A DNA stretch of 50,721 nucleotides from an uncultured Persicobacter sp. GTDB lineage: Bacteria; Bacteroidota; Bacteroidia; Cytophagales; Cyclobacteriaceae. The notes below the pieces were generated by a model. It did not search any database and was not told the DNA's origin. It was given only the letters and a program-made list of their open reading frames with translations. The translations under genes and the position numbers were made by a program. Positions 5,351 through 50,613 of the stretch are shown here, piece after piece (the stretch's first letter is position 1; every line of letters begins with the position of its first letter). Where the stretch lies: positions 1 to 50,721 of the forward strand of contig CANMKE010000036.1 in assembly GCA_947498325.1 (NCBI GenBank). Direction: 5' to 3'.

Positions 5351-6511
5351 TTACGCCGTTCTTTTGCCGCGCAATACCACATACCCCAAAGCGATCAAAC
5401 ACATTGCCCCTGCAGACCAAAAAGTAATTGGAAAATTATCCGCTTGATTATCATAAACCGCCTGCGAGGCCAAGGCCCCAATACCAATCCCCAACTCCAA
5501 AGCGATATACATGGTGGCGATTGCCCGACCACGACGGGCATCATCCGCCAGATCAATTACCCAAGCATAAATCGCAGGAATCATCGACCCGAAGCCAAAT
5601 CCAAACAGCCCAGCAGCGACCATCAACAAGGTGAAATTATTGACAAATCCCAGAAGGATCATGCCCGCACTCATGATCGTCAGGCCAATGATAGAGATCG
5701 GTCGGCGACCATATTTATCGGACAAGCGCCCCATCACCACCCGACACAACAAGGAAGCCACGGTAAAGGCGGTAAAGAAAATTCCCTTATTGGAGATGCC
5801 CAAATGCACGGTAAAATCGGGAATGATGGTCAGCACCACGCCAAAAGAATAGACGGTAAACAACATCACCACCGAAGGCACTAAAACGCGTGCATCGAAA
5901 AAGTCATCCAAGCCGACATTGAGTAATTTCAACTGAAAAGGCTGTTTCTCCTCCACCGTTTCATTCATCCCAAAAAGAATAAGCACCGATAAAATGGACA
6001 CCACACTTGAGGTATAGAAAAGGGCATCAATACCATACTGATTGGCAATCAAACTCCCGAACCACGGCCCCAATGCCATGCCCGTAGAACCAAAGAAACC
6101 ATGAATTCCCATGGCTTCTCCACGCCTTTTGGCAGGCACCACATCCGCCACATAAGCACTGGTGGCGGTGGGTTTGAAACCTGTCGATAGCCCATGAAAG
6201 AGTCGAATCATCAGAAAACCACCCACCGTCTGCATGATCGGATAAAGGAAGCCCATCACAAAACAGACGCTTGCCCCGAAGATCATTACGGGCACACGGC
6301 CAATGGTGTCGGTCAGCTTACCACTGAAGGGGCGTGAAAGGCCAGCCGTAAGGGTAAAAAGGGCAATGATCCAACCTTTATAATCCGCTCCACCCATGCG
6401 GGTCAGGTATTCGGGCAACTCAGGAACGAGCATATTGAAACTGGCGAAGAAAAGAAGGGAACTCAGGCACAAAAGCCAGAATTGGAAGTGATAGATGGAT
6501 GTTGTTTTCAA
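5351..6511 (-). CDS. MFS transporter, drug/metabolite efflux type
   Basis: A 386-aa major-facilitator protein with about 12 hydrophobic segments. Both halves carry the MFS motif A in the loop after the second helix: GKLTDTIGR in the N-half and GRLSDKYGRRP in the C-half. The substrate cannot be read from the sequence; relatives are usually annotated as drug or sugar efflux permeases. The start is a TTG at 6511: the only later Met before motif A lies inside the first membrane helix. A matching promoter lies at 6553-6582. It stands alone, flanked by a repeat-rich gap and the lipoprotein cluster. Confidence 0.88.
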   Translation of the reverse strand: MKTTSIYHFQFWLLCLSSLLFFASFNMLVPELPEYLTRMGGADYKGWIIALFTLTAGLSRPFSGKLTDTIGRVPVMIFGASVCFVMGFLYPIMQTVGGFLMIRLFHGLSTGFKPTATSAYVADVVPAKRRGEAMGIHGFFGSTGMALGPWFGSLIANQYGIDALFYTSSVVSILSVLILFGMNETVEEKQPFQLKLLNVGLDDFFDARVLVPSVVMLFTVYSFGVVLTIIPDFTVHLGISNKGIFFTAFTVASLLCRVVMGRLSDKYGRRPISIIGLTIMSAGMILLGFVNNFTLLMVAAGLFGFGFGSMIPAIYAWVIDLADDARRGRAIATMYIALELGIGIGALASQAVYDNQADNFPITFWSAGAMCLIALGYVVLRGKRTA

Positions 6512-6552
6512 GGTGCTTTTACAAAAATCGTGAGGCCACTTAGGGCAGGCTG

Positions 6553-6582
6553 CAAATTTAGCCTAAGAAAAAGCAATACCAA
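6553..6582 (-). promoter_or_regulatory. Promoter of the MFS gene
   Basis: Minus-strand TTG (6582-6580), 19-nt spacer, TAAATTTG (6560-6553): a full match to the Bacteroidota consensus. It places the transcript start about 35 nt before the TTG start codon at 6511. Confidence 0.65.
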
Positions 6583-6685
6583 AAGTCTAAGGGTTTGAGA
6601 GCGGTGAAAGTTGAAATAAAGCTATCCTGATTCAAGCACCTCGCTTGGATCACCCTCAATAATATCAAGTTAAAATCATTATCCT

Positions 6686-6709
6686 GTAGAGACGTAATTA
6701 TTTACGTCT
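6686..6709 (-). repeat. Dispersed palindrome (GACGT...ACGTCTCTAC family), copy A
   Basis: On the minus strand AGACGTAAATAATTACGTCT followed by CTAC: an imperfect hairpin ending in the CTAC tail shared with the copies at 7030, 7172, 11949 and 44174. Confidence 0.6.
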
Positions 6710-6873
6710 AACACAATACTGATCATATAGATTTTTCATTAGGTTAATTCAAATTGTAACGTGAGGGGCTGCTGCACAACCTAATTCTTAGAGTATGACA
6801 CAAAAGATTATTTTGTAAGTCGTACGGATGCACCTATGTGTGTATCCAAACCATCCAAAATTTATGAGAATTT

Positions 6874-6895
6874 GGGCAGACACCCAGGTCTGCCC
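6874..6895 (+). repeat. Palindrome GGGCAGAC / GTCTGCCC
   Basis: Perfect 8-bp inverted repeat around a 6-nt loop (ACCCAG) in the gene-free 6512-7252 gap. It resembles short dispersed palindromes seen in Bacteroidota intergenic DNA. No U-tract follows on either strand, so it does not look like a terminator. Confidence 0.5.
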
Positions 6896-7029
6896 ATACA
6901 GCGACCAAATAAAATTTGAGGGACAACTTCAGGTTATGGTTGTGCGACAGCCTCTTTACTTGAGCCCCAAAGAAAGAATCAAGAATCCTTTTAATCATGA
7001 AAATCATGATCTCCTTTCCCGGCGCAAGA

Positions 7030-7053
7030 AGACGTTAAGAATAACGTCTCTAC
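7030..7053 (+). repeat. Dispersed palindrome, copy B
   Basis: AGACGTTAAGAATAACGTCT followed by CTAC. Arms AGACGTTA/TAACGTCT are fully complementary. Same family as copies A, C, D and E. Confidence 0.65.
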
Positions 7054-7171
7054 AAATCTGAATCAAAACAAGACGTGAGACATAATGAATTATGCCTTTA
7101 CAGGGAGCCGTTTAAAAAATCAGGGCAATCCTTTTAATCATGAAAATCATGGCCCTTTTCCCACTGCGCAA

Positions 7172-7195
7172 AGACGTTAAGAACAACATCTCCAC
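7172..7195 (+). repeat. Dispersed palindrome, copy C (decayed)
   Basis: AGACGTTAAGAACAACATCT followed by CCAC. Substitutions in the second arm break the pairing seen in copy B, 142 bp upstream. Confidence 0.55.
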
Positions 7196-7200
7196 AAATC

Positions 7201-7233
7201 AAAAAAAGGGAGCTGCATCACACAACTCCCTTT
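7201..7233 (-). terminator. Rho-independent terminator of prfB
   Basis: AAAGGGAG (7205-7212) pairs with CTCCCTTT (7226-7233). On the minus strand the hairpin is followed by a run of seven T. It begins 20 nt after the prfB stop codon. Confidence 0.85.
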
Positions 7234-7252
7234 CAATATCTATGAGGGAAAA

Positions 7253-8354
7253 TTAATCCTGCTCGTTGTTGCTGCCTTGTGCGGCCAACAAATAAGCTTT
7301 GATATAATCATCCAAATCACCGTCAAGGACATTCTGAACGTCGGTGCGCTCAACGCCTGTACGGGCATCCTTGATCAATTTGTAGGGATGCAAAACGTAG
7401 TTACGGATCTGCGAACCGAAATCAATTCCCATTTTGGAATCTTCAATCTCTGCACGTGCCTCATTACGCTTATCTACCTCCAATTGGTAAAGTTTGGACT
7501 TCAGCATCTGGATAGCAATCTCCTTATTACCCAACTGCGAACGCTCCTGCTGACATTCGATCACGAGCCCTGAAGGTCCGTGATGCAGACGCACTGCCGT
7601 CTCTACCTTATTCACGTTCTGCCCACCAGCACCTGATGAACGGAAAGTATCAAACTTGATATCCGCAGGGTTCACGTTAATCTCAATCGTATCATCTACC
7701 ATTGGGTAAACATATACCGATGAGAATGACGTGTGGCGACGTCCACCAGAATCAAAAGGAGAAATACGCACCAAACGGTGTACTCCATTTTCTGATTTCA
7801 GCAAACCGTAAGCAAACTCCCCTTCGAAAGACAATGTCGCACGCTTCAAGCCTGCCACATCCCCCGCCTGGTAATCAATCTGCTTCACTTTCATGCCGTT
7901 CTTCTCACCCCACATGATGTACATACGCATCAGGATCTCTGACCAATCCTGCGACTCCGTACCACCTGCTCCTGGGTTGATCTCGAGCATGGCCCCCAAT
8001 TGATCTTCCTCTGCAGAAAGCATCTTCTTGAACTCCAATTCCTCAACATCATTCAGCACCTTTTTATAGTCCACGTCCACCTCGTCCATGTCTACATCCC
8101 CTTCCTGGTAAAACTCATAGAGTGTCTCTAAGTCTTCCAGGCCAGAAAAGCATACCGCAAAGGCATCGGTCCAGACTTTTTTATTTCTGATCCCTTTCAG
8201 GATTTTCTCCGCCTCCTTTGGATCATTCCAAAATTCAGGCTGAGCAGTTATTGTTTCTTCTTCTGCGATTTCTGATACCTTACGATCGTAGTCAAAGATA
8301 CCCCCTCAAGGCCGAAATACGCGCCTTTAAATCCTTCAGTTGTTCTACTGTCAT
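7253..8354 (-). CDS. prfB: Peptide chain release factor 2, with programmed +1 frameshift
   Basis: RF2 terminates translation at UGA and UAA. The gene is in two frames. From ATG at 8354, 20 codons run to CTT TGA (8297-8292). A +1 slip on CTT then reads GAC and continues to the stop at 7253, giving 366 aa, the usual RF2 length. The frameshift signal AGGGGGTATCTTTGAC is base-for-base the well-known E. coli signal, including the internal Shine-Dalgarno-like AGGGGG three nt before CTT. Recognition motif SPF is at about residues 198-200 and the catalytic GGQ at about 243-245. Read without the shift, only a 278-aa protein starting at an internal Met (8089) would be called. RF2 scarcity at the in-frame UGA raises frameshifting and so autoregulates the gene. 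A terminator follows at 7201-7233. Confidence 0.97.
8291..8306 (-). promoter_or_regulatory. RF2 autoregulatory +1 frameshift site
   Basis: On the minus strand AGGGGGTATCTTTGAC: internal Shine-Dalgarno-like element, slippery CTT, in-frame UGA and the following C that weakens termination. Confidence 0.95.
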
Positions 8355-46688: not shown

Positions 46689-47321
46689 ATGGAAAATCCA
46701 GTATTAATATTCGGCGCAAACGCAATTGGCAAAGCCGCCCTTGAAATTTTCAACAGCAATGGGGTGGAAGTTTATGGTTTCTTGGATGAAAACGAAGAGC
46801 TACACAACACCCAAATTGGCTTGGTGTCGGTTTTGGGATTTACAGATGATGAAGCCATGACACAGATGGTGGGAGAAAGCTGCAGTGCTTTTGTGGCTAC
46901 GGATGAAAATCAGCTACGCAAAAGCCAGGTGGAAATGCTGAATGAAAGCCGCAAAGTGCAACCAGCCAATGCCGTTCACCGCTCGGCGCTACTTTCAGAA
47001 AGCGCATCGATTGGTTATGGAAACATGGTCAATGCCAAAGTTTTCCTGGGTGCTCATGTTGAGGTTGGCAGCCATACCATTCTACATACGGGTGTAAATA
47101 TAGATGCTGACTGCAAGATAGGTGATTTCGCCCAAATTGGCACAGGCAGTAACATCAATGCCGGGGTAACCATTGAAGAAGAGGTCTTCATTGGCTCAGG
47201 CGTAACCATTGTTGCGGGGGTAACCATTGGAAAAGGTGCCCGTGTTGGTGCTGGATCTGTAGTAATTGCTGATGTAAAAGCAGGACAAACAGTATTTGGT
47301 AACCCTGCCGCTACGATCTAA
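46689..47321 (+). CDS. NeuD/PglD-type hexapeptide acyltransferase
   Basis: A 210-aa protein. The N-terminal Rossmann-like domain (VLIFGANAIGKAALEIFNSN, VYGFLDE) that binds the sugar nucleotide is followed by a left-handed beta-helix of hexapeptide repeats (about residues 95-205: IGYGNMVNAKVFLGAHVEVG, IGDFAQIGTGSNINAGVTI). NeuD and PglD O- or N-acetylate sugars in glycan synthesis. Here no other glycan gene is adjacent, so the substrate is open. Terminator at 47340. Confidence 0.9.
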   Translation: MENPVLIFGANAIGKAALEIFNSNGVEVYGFLDENEELHNTQIGLVSVLGFTDDEAMTQMVGESCSAFVATDENQLRKSQVEMLNESRKVQPANAVHRSALLSESASIGYGNMVNAKVFLGAHVEVGSHTILHTGVNIDADCKIGDFAQIGTGSNINAGVTIEEEVFIGSGVTIVAGVTIGKGARVGAGSVVIADVKAGQTVFGNPAATI

Positions 47322-47339: not shown

Positions 47340-47377
47340 AAAGCCCTTGAGTATAATCATCACTCAAGGGCTTTTTT
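47340..47377. terminator. Bidirectional terminator
   Basis: AAAGCCCTTGAGT/ACTCAAGGGCTTT stem, with T to 47377 on the plus strand and a shorter A-rich flank on the other side. Lies between the convergent acyltransferase and B-repeat lipoprotein genes. Confidence 0.88.
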
Positions 47378-47395: not shown

Positions 47396-48742
47396 TTACT
47401 CCTGCTCAAGCATCGATAAATCTGCGGCTTTTGTGATCTCTGGTGACAGTTCCCCAAGCCAGCCCGCAATCTCGGTGGTGGCGGTGTACACTTTCACAAA
47501 ATCTACCTGAATGAGGGTAACCTTATTGCCCATGGCATCTACGGCATTCGAAAGGTCAAAAACATCGGCACCTGCAAGCACAGATCCTCGCTCCTGCTCA
47601 TAGCCAGCATTATCAGCATAACCCCAGTCAAATTTTGGACTCACATAAAAAGGATATTCACTGCCTGTACCCTCATTCTGATCATAGGTTTTGGATTTCA
47701 GCAAAGTACCTTTAAAAGTAACCGATCCTTCGGTATACATGGCAGGGAACATCGGCTGATCGTGGAACGGTTTAATGTCCGTAAAATCCCTTGTGCCTAC
47801 TTTTTCCTGCCCATCAATAATTTCTTTATAAGGAATGATGTGGGTGTCTTGCCCCGCCTCCGGACGGTAATAGGTAATTTCATAGTTGTGTGTCGTTTCT
47901 GGCAGATCGTAATCACTTCCTGCCAGTTCATACCACGGCTCATCGGCATCAGGCTGCCCGTTACCATTCAAATCCTGACAAACCATCACGATTCCTGGCT
48001 CACTGTTCCCTTCAAAAGAATTACCATAAATCGCCAAATCATTCCCCTCACGGTTCACAATTGGGTGGTCAAACTTAAAAGATACATTTCCGCCGAAAGT
48101 TCCCAGACTCACAAACTGATGGCTATCCCCCACAAGGTTCTCTTTGGCTGCCGCAAGTTCATCGTCGACTTTGTTGATAAACTGCCCTGGTGCTGGTCTG
48201 AAGTCCAGCACTTCAGAAATCCATGGAGACTTGTCCGTCAAATCGATTTGCTCACGTGCCCAGTCTGCCACAAGCTGAAGGTCGGCAATAACAGGCGTAG
48301 AAAAATCAAAAAGCTCGTCGTTGCTTTTCCACCCTTCAAAGGTATATCCATATTTTGCAGGTACGGGCGGCTCCGTCACAAAGTCCCCTGCATCAATAAC
48401 CTGCGCTTCAATTTCCTCCGCCCCATCAGTATCGAAACTGACCGTATAAGTATTGCCTGTCCATTGTGCCGAAAGGGTAAGCGATTGGTGCACAGGCGCG
48501 GAAAAGTCGTACAGCTTGTTCCCCTCAAACCAGTTAATAAAGGTACTTCCTTCCTGCTCGGGATCTTCAGGTCGGGCAGCCAAATCGCCATCCTCTACCA
48601 TTTGAGGGGCGATTTCCGTGCCTCCGTTGGCGTCAAAAGTAATCGTATGAAAAACGGGCTCTTCATTGATTTCCGAAGGGGTACAGCCCCAAAAGAGGGT
48701 CGCCAAAAATAAAGCGACGAATACATTACAAATTTTCATCAT
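47396..48742 (-). CDS. B-repeat surface lipoprotein, cobalamin-regulated (second gene)
   Basis: A 448-aa lipoprotein (lipobox LFWGC). Two InlB-type B-repeats (Listeria-Bacteroides repeat) lie at about 33-92 and 98-158, each with F-x-x-x-GG-like opening, GD, W and a final Q-W or D-W (TFINWFEG, FEGWKSND). The C-terminal domain of about 290 aa has GTFGGNVSFKFDHPI, SEPGIVMVCQDLNGNGQPD, EPWYELAGSDYD and HNYEITYYRP. From memory this resembles a surface protein encoded in Bacteroides cobalamin-uptake loci. DLNGNGQPDADE looks like a calcium-binding loop. It starts 17 nt after the preceding gene and is controlled with it by the riboswitch at 50201-50387. Confidence 0.85.
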   Translation of the reverse strand: MMKICNVFVALFLATLFWGCTPSEINEEPVFHTITFDANGGTEIAPQMVEDGDLAARPEDPEQEGSTFINWFEGNKLYDFSAPVHQSLTLSAQWTGNTYTVSFDTDGAEEIEAQVIDAGDFVTEPPVPAKYGYTFEGWKSNDELFDFSTPVIADLQLVADWAREQIDLTDKSPWISEVLDFRPAPGQFINKVDDELAAAKENLVGDSHQFVSLGTFGGNVSFKFDHPIVNREGNDLAIYGNSFEGNSEPGIVMVCQDLNGNGQPDADEPWYELAGSDYDLPETTHNYEITYYRPEAGQDTHIIPYKEIIDGQEKVGTRDFTDIKPFHDQPMFPAMYTEGSVTFKGTLLKSKTYDQNEGTGSEYPFYVSPKFDWGYADNAGYEQERGSVLAGADVFDLSNAVDAMGNKVTLIQVDFVKVYTATTEIAGWLGELSPEITKAADLSMLEQE

Positions 48743-48759
48743 CAGTAAGTAATTAAAAA

Positions 48760-50037
48760 TTATAGGTTGTTGAAGGTTTGATAGACTTGAGGGTTGCCAT
48801 CTTTAAGCAGGGACTCGTAATGGCCATTTTGCTGAATGACATGTACAAATACATTGGTGCCCACTTTATCGGTCAGTTGTTGTAAAGCGGCTCCTGTTAA
48901 TTCAGGAAGGCTGATTTGCTGAGAAGCCACGGTAATGGTGGTATGCCCTGCCGACGATTCCACCTGCTGAAGATTTCCACGAAGAACGGCATCAAAATAT
49001 TCGATACCATAGCGGGTATCACCCGTCCATCGGCTGCCATTATAGCCATCGGTACTGTTCTGCCCAAAGCCCAGCTGAGGACTGCTCATGTAGGTGTCTT
49101 TCACCAAATCGAACACATAAGTTTGATCGAAAGTAAAGCCATCACTTTCCCGAAGGGGAAAGGTAAACATCCCGAAATTGGAATGGCTGTACAGGTCTTT
49201 GGAACTGTTGCCCTGATCATCGACCAAGTAAGTTTCTGTGCCCCACGCCCAGCCATTCATCATTTTATGAATGCTCGCTTTCACTAAAATATGCTGATTT
49301 TGCACCATCCCCTCAAAGCTGGCTTTGGCGATGTCGTCATAAGTAACCGCCGTTTCACCGTCAGGAATACTCCACTGCGCCTCAAGCTGAATATTTTCAG
49401 TAACTGATGCTGAAAAGTCATAGCTTTTACCATCACAGAACCAGCCTTCAAACACTTCATTTTCCTTTACAGGAGTCTCAGGTGCTTCCAGTTGATCACC
49501 TGCTTTTATCGTTTGCGGAGCAAGTTCGCTTCCTCCATTGGTATTGAACACCACCGTAAGCGCTTGCGCCCAATGTGCCTCAAGCTGAAGGTGATCGGTG
49601 ATTGTTGCTGAAAAATCAAACAACTGACCATCGACATACCAGCCATCAAAAAAGTAATTTTCCTTTACGGGTTCTTCAGGAGGGCTAAGGGTATTTCCGT
49701 GAGCAATCAGCTGATCTTCTACCGCCGTGCCTCCTTGTGCATCGAAACTGATTTCATACTGATTACCAGTATATTGGGCGATCAGTTTTAAATCCTGATG
49801 AATGGGTGTTGAGAAATCAAAAATTTTTGTTCCCACCGCCCAATGGGAAAAAGTAGCTCCTTCCTTTGCTGGATCGGCAGGTTGTTCCACCCTTCCGCCA
49901 TCGGAAATTAGCTGTGGCGCAATCGGGTTGTTGGTTTGGGTGTCAAAAGTAATTTGATAGGTGGCCATCTGTTCTTCCGAAGTACATGCTGTAAACAGAA
50001 AAACGAAGACCAATAAAAAGTAAGGTAACCTCTTCAT
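48760..50037 (-). CDS. B-repeat surface lipoprotein, cobalamin-regulated (first gene)
   Basis: A 425-aa lipoprotein (lipobox LFTAC). Three B-repeats lie at about 27-88, 93-153 and 158-219 (each with G-x-x-F-x-x-W and YDF or FDFSA-x-(I/V)). A C-terminal domain of about 200 aa that I do not recognise follows; it contains MMNGWAWGTETYLVDDQGN and many Trp/Tyr/Phe residues. The gene is the first after the cobalamin riboswitch, with a leader of about 160 nt between the aptamer and the ATG. By inference it is a surface binding protein for B12 or for a B12-loaded partner, made when cobalamin is scarce. Confidence 0.83.
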   Translation of the reverse strand: MKRLPYFLLVFVFLFTACTSEEQMATYQITFDTQTNNPIAPQLISDGGRVEQPADPAKEGATFSHWAVGTKIFDFSTPIHQDLKLIAQYTGNQYEISFDAQGGTAVEDQLIAHGNTLSPPEEPVKENYFFDGWYVDGQLFDFSATITDHLQLEAHWAQALTVVFNTNGGSELAPQTIKAGDQLEAPETPVKENEVFEGWFCDGKSYDFSASVTENIQLEAQWSIPDGETAVTYDDIAKASFEGMVQNQHILVKASIHKMMNGWAWGTETYLVDDQGNSSKDLYSHSNFGMFTFPLRESDGFTFDQTYVFDLVKDTYMSSPQLGFGQNSTDGYNGSRWTGDTRYGIEYFDAVLRGNLQQVESSAGHTTITVASQQISLPELTGAALQQLTDKVGTNVFVHVIQQNGHYESLLKDGNPQVYQTFNNL

Positions 50038-50200
50038 TATAATGGTTTATGTAAATATGAAAAGCCAAACATTCGCTTGGCAAAAATTCAAAAAAACATA
50101 TGTAAACCTTTCAGCAAGAATGAACAGCGCGCTCCTACCCTAATGAAAAAGAGCGAAAAGACCACCATATTTTTTATGCTTAACTCCCGAAGCTTAAAAG

Positions 50201-50387
50201 TTTACAAATGATGGCAGGTCTCCTGACTTATGCCGTGATTGTCCGCCTTCCCATCTTTTCAGACAGTGGCAAGAGGTTATAACAACCACACGATTGGCAT
50301 TTTACAGTTGCGGGTACAGTTCTGGATTTTCACCAGATTCCCTATTATCCGACCGTGAGGATATCACGATCAGCACCATAGTGTAAA
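50201..50387 (-). ncRNA. Cobalamin (B12) riboswitch
   Basis: Read on the minus strand from 50387. P1 arm TTTACA...ATGG pairs with CCAT...TGTAAA at the 3' end. The conserved core has GGGAATCTGGTGAAAATCC, then CTGTACCCGCAACTGT, the GCCACTGTCTG segment, GGGAAGGCGGA, and the 3' AAGTCAGGAGACCTGCC. These are the hallmark boxes of the AdoCbl/cobalamin aptamer in order. The expression platform (between 50200 and 50037) is not clear: only a weak GCTT/AAGC stem without a U-run is seen, so control may be at translation. It points at the two B-repeat lipoprotein genes. Confidence 0.93.
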
Positions 50388-50613
50388 GCTAAGAAAAATT
50401 TGATGAATTATAATAATCTAAATTCATGATTGATGTCATGTGGGTGGATAAGCACCCAATAGCAGGAGAAGCTAATAAACCATGATGACCATGACGACCT
50501 TAATTTTAAGGATGACCATGATTCTTCATTTTACTTAGAATATTGATTTGTGAGCGAGGTTTGGATAGATCTCCTCAAAAAATCTGTGGACAAATATAAA
50601 AAAGTATAGACCC

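Follow-up and report, generated by a model that had tools for sequence, protein, structure and literature searches.

Bacteroidota take up vitamin B12 with the help of surface lipoproteins, a set that is still growing (BtuG, BtuH, BtuJ and BtuK) and that has been investigated chiefly in gut Bacteroides. BtuH2 of Bacteroides thetaiotaomicron (BT_1956; structure 7biz) is described in PMC8941943 as a lipoprotein with a C-terminal B12-binding domain on a stalk of three PKD domains, encoded with btuB and btuG in a riboswitch-bearing B12 locus; eight of its residues are named there as B12 contacts (Q333, N399, F401, H476, Y510, W511, W577 and L578). BtuJ, a DUF4465 protein, is presented in PMC12751083 and PMC13398666 as an extracytoplasmic B12-binding head. 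The former account credits the four B12 operons of B. thetaiotaomicron with ten cobalamin-binding proteins; it also describes two lipoproteins of such operons, BtuK2 and BtuL, for which it reports no detectable cobalamin binding, and an effect of BtuL on vesicle release.

The window analysed here is the whole of contig C36 (50,721 bases), from a genome of 5.66 Mb in 194 contigs. It holds a riboswitch-preceded pair of lipoprotein genes (Table 1) that is very probably an accessory B12-scavenging operon, with BtuH and X capture lipoproteins (X being the C-terminal head of the first product, protein A) and with the transporter encoded in trans. The two open reading frames (ORFs) lie on the riboswitch strand with 17 bases between them, and are followed by a terminator-like hairpin and then by a convergent gene (46689-47321, forward strand), in agreement with an earlier reading made from the letters alone (the sequence-only reading), which had placed only two genes between the riboswitch and the terminator. 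Upstream of the riboswitch, the ORF list contains no ORF of at least 80 amino acids (aa), and tRNA-Asp alone stands before the contig end. Since the contig ends in this tRNA, just upstream of the riboswitch, the operon itself is uncut. Both breaks of the contig fall at tRNA genes: at its start (positions 1-180) are two similar ones, a whole tRNA-Leu (98-180) and a second (1-76; Rfam only) that is cut by the contig end.

Table 1. Features of the riboswitch-preceded lipoprotein operon, in the direction of transcription (window coordinates).
Feature	Coordinates	Strand	Basis
Cobalamin riboswitch aptamer (RF00174)	50196..50395	-	Rfam match, model 1-189/189
Post-aptamer hairpin, CGGGA in loop, candidate L13 partner of the aptamer's CCCG loop	50178..50193	-	Predicted fold of leader
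Terminator-like hairpin GCCAAGC-GAAT-GTTTGGC-TTTT, 27 nt before start codon	50064..50081	-	Terminator scan; weak
Lipoprotein A, 425 aa: signal/lipobox, three B-repeats, X head	48760..50037	-	ORF list, Pfam
B-repeat 1, protein A	49774..49959	-	Pfam
B-repeat 2, protein A	49582..49758	-	Pfam
B-repeat 3, protein A	49375..49557	-	Pfam
X head, uncharacterised domain (residues 222-425), only beside B12 uptake genes in genomes searched	48763..49374	-	
Lipoprotein B, 448 aa: signal/lipobox, two B-repeats, BtuH head	47396..48742	-	ORF list, Pfam, PDB sequence match
B-repeat 1, protein B	48464..48649	-	Pfam
B-repeat 2, protein B	48266..48448	-	Pfam
Predicted BtuH B12-binding domain (residues 169-447)	47402..48238	-	7biz_A E 7.7e-46, 8blw_B E 2.3e-36
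Terminator-like hairpin, 14 pairs, end of operon	47340..47374	-	Terminator scan

The cobalamin aptamer that the sequence-only reading had placed at 50201-50387 was recovered by a covariance-model search: the RF00174 match covers all 189 model positions and reaches 106.6 bits (gathering score 31.5; E 8.6e-26). Cobamides probably control expression of the pair, in the OFF-switch direction. Just past the aptamer, the predicted fold of the leader (z -1.84) contains the CGGGA-loop hairpin, which we take to be the L13 kissing loop of the cobalamin riboswitch. By eye, CGGGA stands shortly 3' of the aptamer in all 11 leaders examined, namely those of the window, the three other riboswitches of this genome and seven of the nine Flammeovirga loci described below (all but L026 and L028; 13 leaders are known in total). 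The terminator-like hairpin nearer the start codon is weak evidence, because the scan finds such sites at close to chance frequency (six in the region; shuffled sequences average 4.2, sd 2.1).

Both products have N-termini that are lipobox-like as judged by eye (FTAC and FWGC), followed by InlB-type B-repeats (Flg_new/List_Bact_rpt in Pfam) and by C-terminal heads that are unlike each other, as had been proposed. The repeats of protein A (three, E 4.8e-36) and protein B (two, E 5.6e-25) all exceed the curated cut-off of 27 bits, with scores of 35.2-52.4 bits. The genome has many such repeats (44 matches, 43 of them above the cut-off), which likewise carry an unrelated DUF285 head, so we regard them as a general stalk and not as a hallmark of B12 proteins. 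We found no paper linking InlB B-repeats to vitamin B12 (cobalamin) lipoproteins. BtuH matched 23 of 395 genomes of the phylum: this one, 11 with strong matches (at least 93 bits) and 11 with weak matches (27 bits or less) that were excluded from use. None of ten BtuH-bearing proteins scanned from seven of the 11 strong genomes had a B-repeat (Pfam, E up to 0.01; the BtuH proteins of loci L067, L073, L131, L132 and L133 and the second of L071 were left out): three had PKD domains above the cut-off, five had weak PKD-like matches, and two had a DUF5074 propeller.

The sequence-only reading had put no name to the second head. Judged by sequence, the head of protein B is a BtuH domain, matching both B12-bound BtuH2 (7biz_A) and BtuG1 in its H domain (8blw_B). 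Six of the eight contacts named for BtuH2 are identical in protein B (Q333, N399, F401, H476, W577 and L578), and the remaining two are aromatic swaps (Tyr510 to Phe and Trp511 to Tyr); by this homology the window BtuH head would bind B12. In a tree of 27 rows (six of which, having no start motif, were trimmed to their last 290 residues), the window BtuH clusters with ten Flammeovirga BtuHs with a support of 100/99. A second BtuH of this genome, encoded on contig C5, is 40% identical to the window BtuH and sits on a long branch of unsure place, and the program warned that long branches may meet. By eye, two of the contacts, the Trp of W577 and the His of H476, seem to be missing from the C5 protein (L005 10559-11476), which would make the window copy the better preserved of the two.

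X has proved as hard to place as the sequence-only reading had said. It matched no family above the cut-off in Pfam or NCBIfam, and its matches among PDB sequences were not convincing (best E 0.12 and 0.15). Three known heads were considered for X and rejected: DUF4465 (BtuJ), from which it differs by Pfam and by profile comparison; BtuH, to which it has no detectable similarity; and the DUF5074 propeller of BtuG or BtuK, for which there was no profile match. A Pfam match to CDH-cyt in six of ten X members (best E 0.0036) was taken as chance, the window X reaching 14.4 bits where the cut-off is 27.

All nine Flammeovirga genomes (genus g115) encode X, in one copy each. Among 390 genomes of the order, X was found in this genome and nine others; among 146 relatives, two genomes besides this one matched, one strongly and one weakly. 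The weak match (G026; E 8.5e-4) is a 129-aa ORF with no B12 gene within the 3.3 kb examined, and was set aside as chance. This genome alone matched among 395 genomes sampled from the phylum (two-row alignment), and alone at significance among 295 sampled from the class (ten-row alignment), where four more matches with E values of 0.03-0.06 were taken as noise; since every Flammeovirga has X, these two samples can contain no Flammeovirga. A pattern-based scan of a genome collection described as holding 84,980 species returned five X loci, all named Flammeovirga, and no relative of X was present among 600 pattern matches in viral contigs.

Structure prediction and a fold search did not place X. 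Two AlphaFold2 runs with six sequences gave models too poor for a fold claim, which was dropped (pLDDT 47 and 36). The first model has a pLDDT of about 80 for residues 131-170, 66 for 171-180 and about 51 for 181-200, and between 129 and 188 its elements run beta-beta-beta-alpha-beta-beta; the second (pLDDT 36) did not reproduce this confident part. Foldseek found nothing at E <= 0.001 (best E 0.016, query TM-score <= 0.26 among the best 50 matches listed). Nearly all of these 50 are presumably OB-fold proteins; as the model is poor this is a lead only, and at most hints at OB folds in X. We know of no OB fold in any B12 receptor, and we found no paper on OB-fold vitamin B12-binding proteins in Bacteroidota, nor on Flammeovirga BtuB. 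Given the poor models and the dissimilarity of X to BtuH and DUF4465, a binding site in X cannot be located. Across ten X sequences, 13 of 49 invariant columns (27%) are Trp, Tyr, Phe or His, compared with 15% of window X residues, which is in keeping with a ligand site, though unspecific.

A survey of genomes for the X-BtuH pair near btuB found it in every one of the nine Flammeovirga loci (L020-L028). In each, a cobalamin riboswitch (84.2-101.3 bits) has X as its first gene, and B-repeat-X and BtuH are followed by a btuB-like TonB receptor and a btuG-like propeller; in two (L023 and L024), a B-repeat-DUF4465 gene is inserted before the receptor, and L023 also has a second BtuH. Pfam was used to check the receptor in L020 and DUF4465 in L023, the other Flammeovirga genes being named by similarity or by eye. 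The X proteins carry one to four B-repeats (by eye; the four of L020 by Pfam). The order of riboswitch, B-repeat-X and BtuH is common to the window and these loci, with X heads 43-46% identical (nine rows) and BtuH heads 60-64% identical (seven rows) to those of the window, whereas the window pair stands alone and the Flammeovirga pair shares its operon with the btuB-like and btuG-like genes. This genome and the Flammeovirga genomes belong to the same order; NCBI puts Flammeovirga in Cytophagales. Horizontal transfer of the pair was considered. Flammeovirga receptors (six loci) are 46-47% identical to the btuB of this genome and the propellers (four loci) 43-48% identical to its btuG, a divergence much like that of X, so shared descent with loss in relatives would be as likely as transfer.

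The absence of a TonB receptor, which had been put forward for the pair, holds for this operon and fails for the genome, and we rejected it as the remarkable feature of the locus. Four cobalamin riboswitches are present, on C36 (the window), C5, C7 and C1. That on C5 heads an operon for a BtuH-only lipoprotein, a Plug-domain receptor (btuB) and a DUF5074 propeller (BtuG); that on C7 precedes CobT-, CobS- and CobC-like genes (named by eye); and that on C1 (L007 13550-17541) is followed by genes for two DUF4465 (BtuJ) lipoproteins, which flank the gene for a 545-aa protein. The 545-aa product is lipoprotein-like and, by eye, MACPF-like; it has no Pfam match (E up to 1), and BLASTP found no similarity between it and the L133 MACPF protein described below. 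A B-repeat-DUF4465 (BtuJ) lipoprotein is encoded on C17 (L123 4133-5419), where no cobalamin riboswitch was found within 9 kb around the gene, even at E up to 5; DUF4465 also stands on B-repeats in L023 (by Pfam) and L024 (by eye). The enzyme B12-binding domain has three matches in the genome. X, H, J, B and G, which form one operon in two Flammeovirga loci, are distributed over three contigs here.

We propose that, when intracellular cobalamin is low, the riboswitch would permit synthesis of both outer-membrane lipoproteins, and that high cobalamin would turn expression off. In each protein, two or three B-repeats would form a stalk between a lipid anchor and the head. The BtuH head would bind B12 by its corrin ring and its nucleotide loop. 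X would be dedicated to this uptake system too, most likely as another cobamide binder of a different build, which captures B12 from the medium or relays it; it is the genomic context that suggests cobamide binding by X. B12 would then go to the transporter BtuB-BtuG, whose genes lie in trans on C5; both lipoproteins would presumably be displayed on the surface. The B12-responsive surface capture pair of the sequence-only reading, with two heads on B-repeat stalks, fits this proposal, although its B12 response, its surface location and binding by X are conjectural parts. Tentatively, X could well be a new family of cobamide-binding surface domains, possibly an OB-fold pair, so far confined to Flammeovirga and this genome and mounted on exchangeable B-repeat stalks that also bear BtuH and BtuJ heads.

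It is possible, though we doubt it, that X binds no B12 and is a structural or docking accessory, which might position BtuH or the transporter or act in vesicle release as BtuL does. BtuK2 and BtuL, as lipoproteins of B12 operons with no cobalamin binding detected according to PMC12751083, show that X could be such an accessory, and X is unlike both BtuH and DUF4465. However, X is built like the BtuH and DUF4465 heads of the same operons (a C-terminal head on a B-repeat stalk), the same source counts ten cobalamin binders in the four B. thetaiotaomicron operons, and the aromatic and His-rich invariant columns fit a ligand site, if unspecifically. An unlikely alternative is that X takes another ligand (a B12 precursor, an incomplete corrinoid or a foreign B12-protein complex) for remodelling by the products of the CobT, CobS and CobC genes: the C7 genes would make incomplete corrinoids usable and an adjacent X and BtuH would share out ligands, but nothing in the Flammeovirga loci points to a particular ligand. 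The same pair heads the longer Flammeovirga operon, and it might be a decaying remnant of such a btu operon, functionless since it was parted from btuB and btuG; this is highly improbable in view of two intact ORFs, a riboswitch that scores above any of the nine Flammeovirga loci, mostly conserved BtuH contacts and a closing terminator-like hairpin.

Other loci show further arrangements of these genes. In the genus of G377, a cobalamin riboswitch precedes a lone BtuH gene with btuB not adjacent (L132 6438-7837; gene at 6438-7289), as in the window; unlike the window pair, this is a single gene, without B-repeats and without X. In the same genus, a lipoprotein with a Pfam MACPF match (L133 7292-8962; 28.2 bits, cut-off 21.5) is encoded between btuG and btuH, in a series of btuB-like, btuG-like and btuH genes with a riboswitch at its head, and a pore-forming-type domain is odd in a B12 operon. 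L066 (7741-12580) and L067 (7473-12272) each encode three consecutive BtuH-type proteins and then one aligned as DUF4465, with no btuB seen by eye in the 18 kb listed. L131 (7609-10358) encodes two proteins that we call BtuK-like solely from their place in the operon. The first combines a PKD-like domain with a DUF5074 propeller and the second has PKD-like matches only, which suggests that BtuK may be a relative of BtuG.

The operon represents a relative of the B12 system of gut Bacteroides, in a genome from the order of Flammeovirga, with one type of B-repeat stalk bearing three unlike heads; judged by title, none of the papers found on Flammeovirga and cobalamin is about B12 uptake. X adds one further head family, ready for expression and a B12-binding test, and the locus offers a case in which capture proteins and their presumed transporter share a kind of riboswitch, yet are encoded apart. 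Compared with BtuH2, protein B has a similar lipoprotein build with a C-terminal BtuH domain and a comparable riboswitch-bearing setting; it differs in having two B-repeats in place of three PKD domains and in belonging to an operon without btuB. The window pair thus appears to be a split-off part of a known type of B12 capture system: as a riboswitch-bearing B12 capture operon it is ordinary in kind, and its B-repeat stalks, its X head and its transporter in trans are new in detail.
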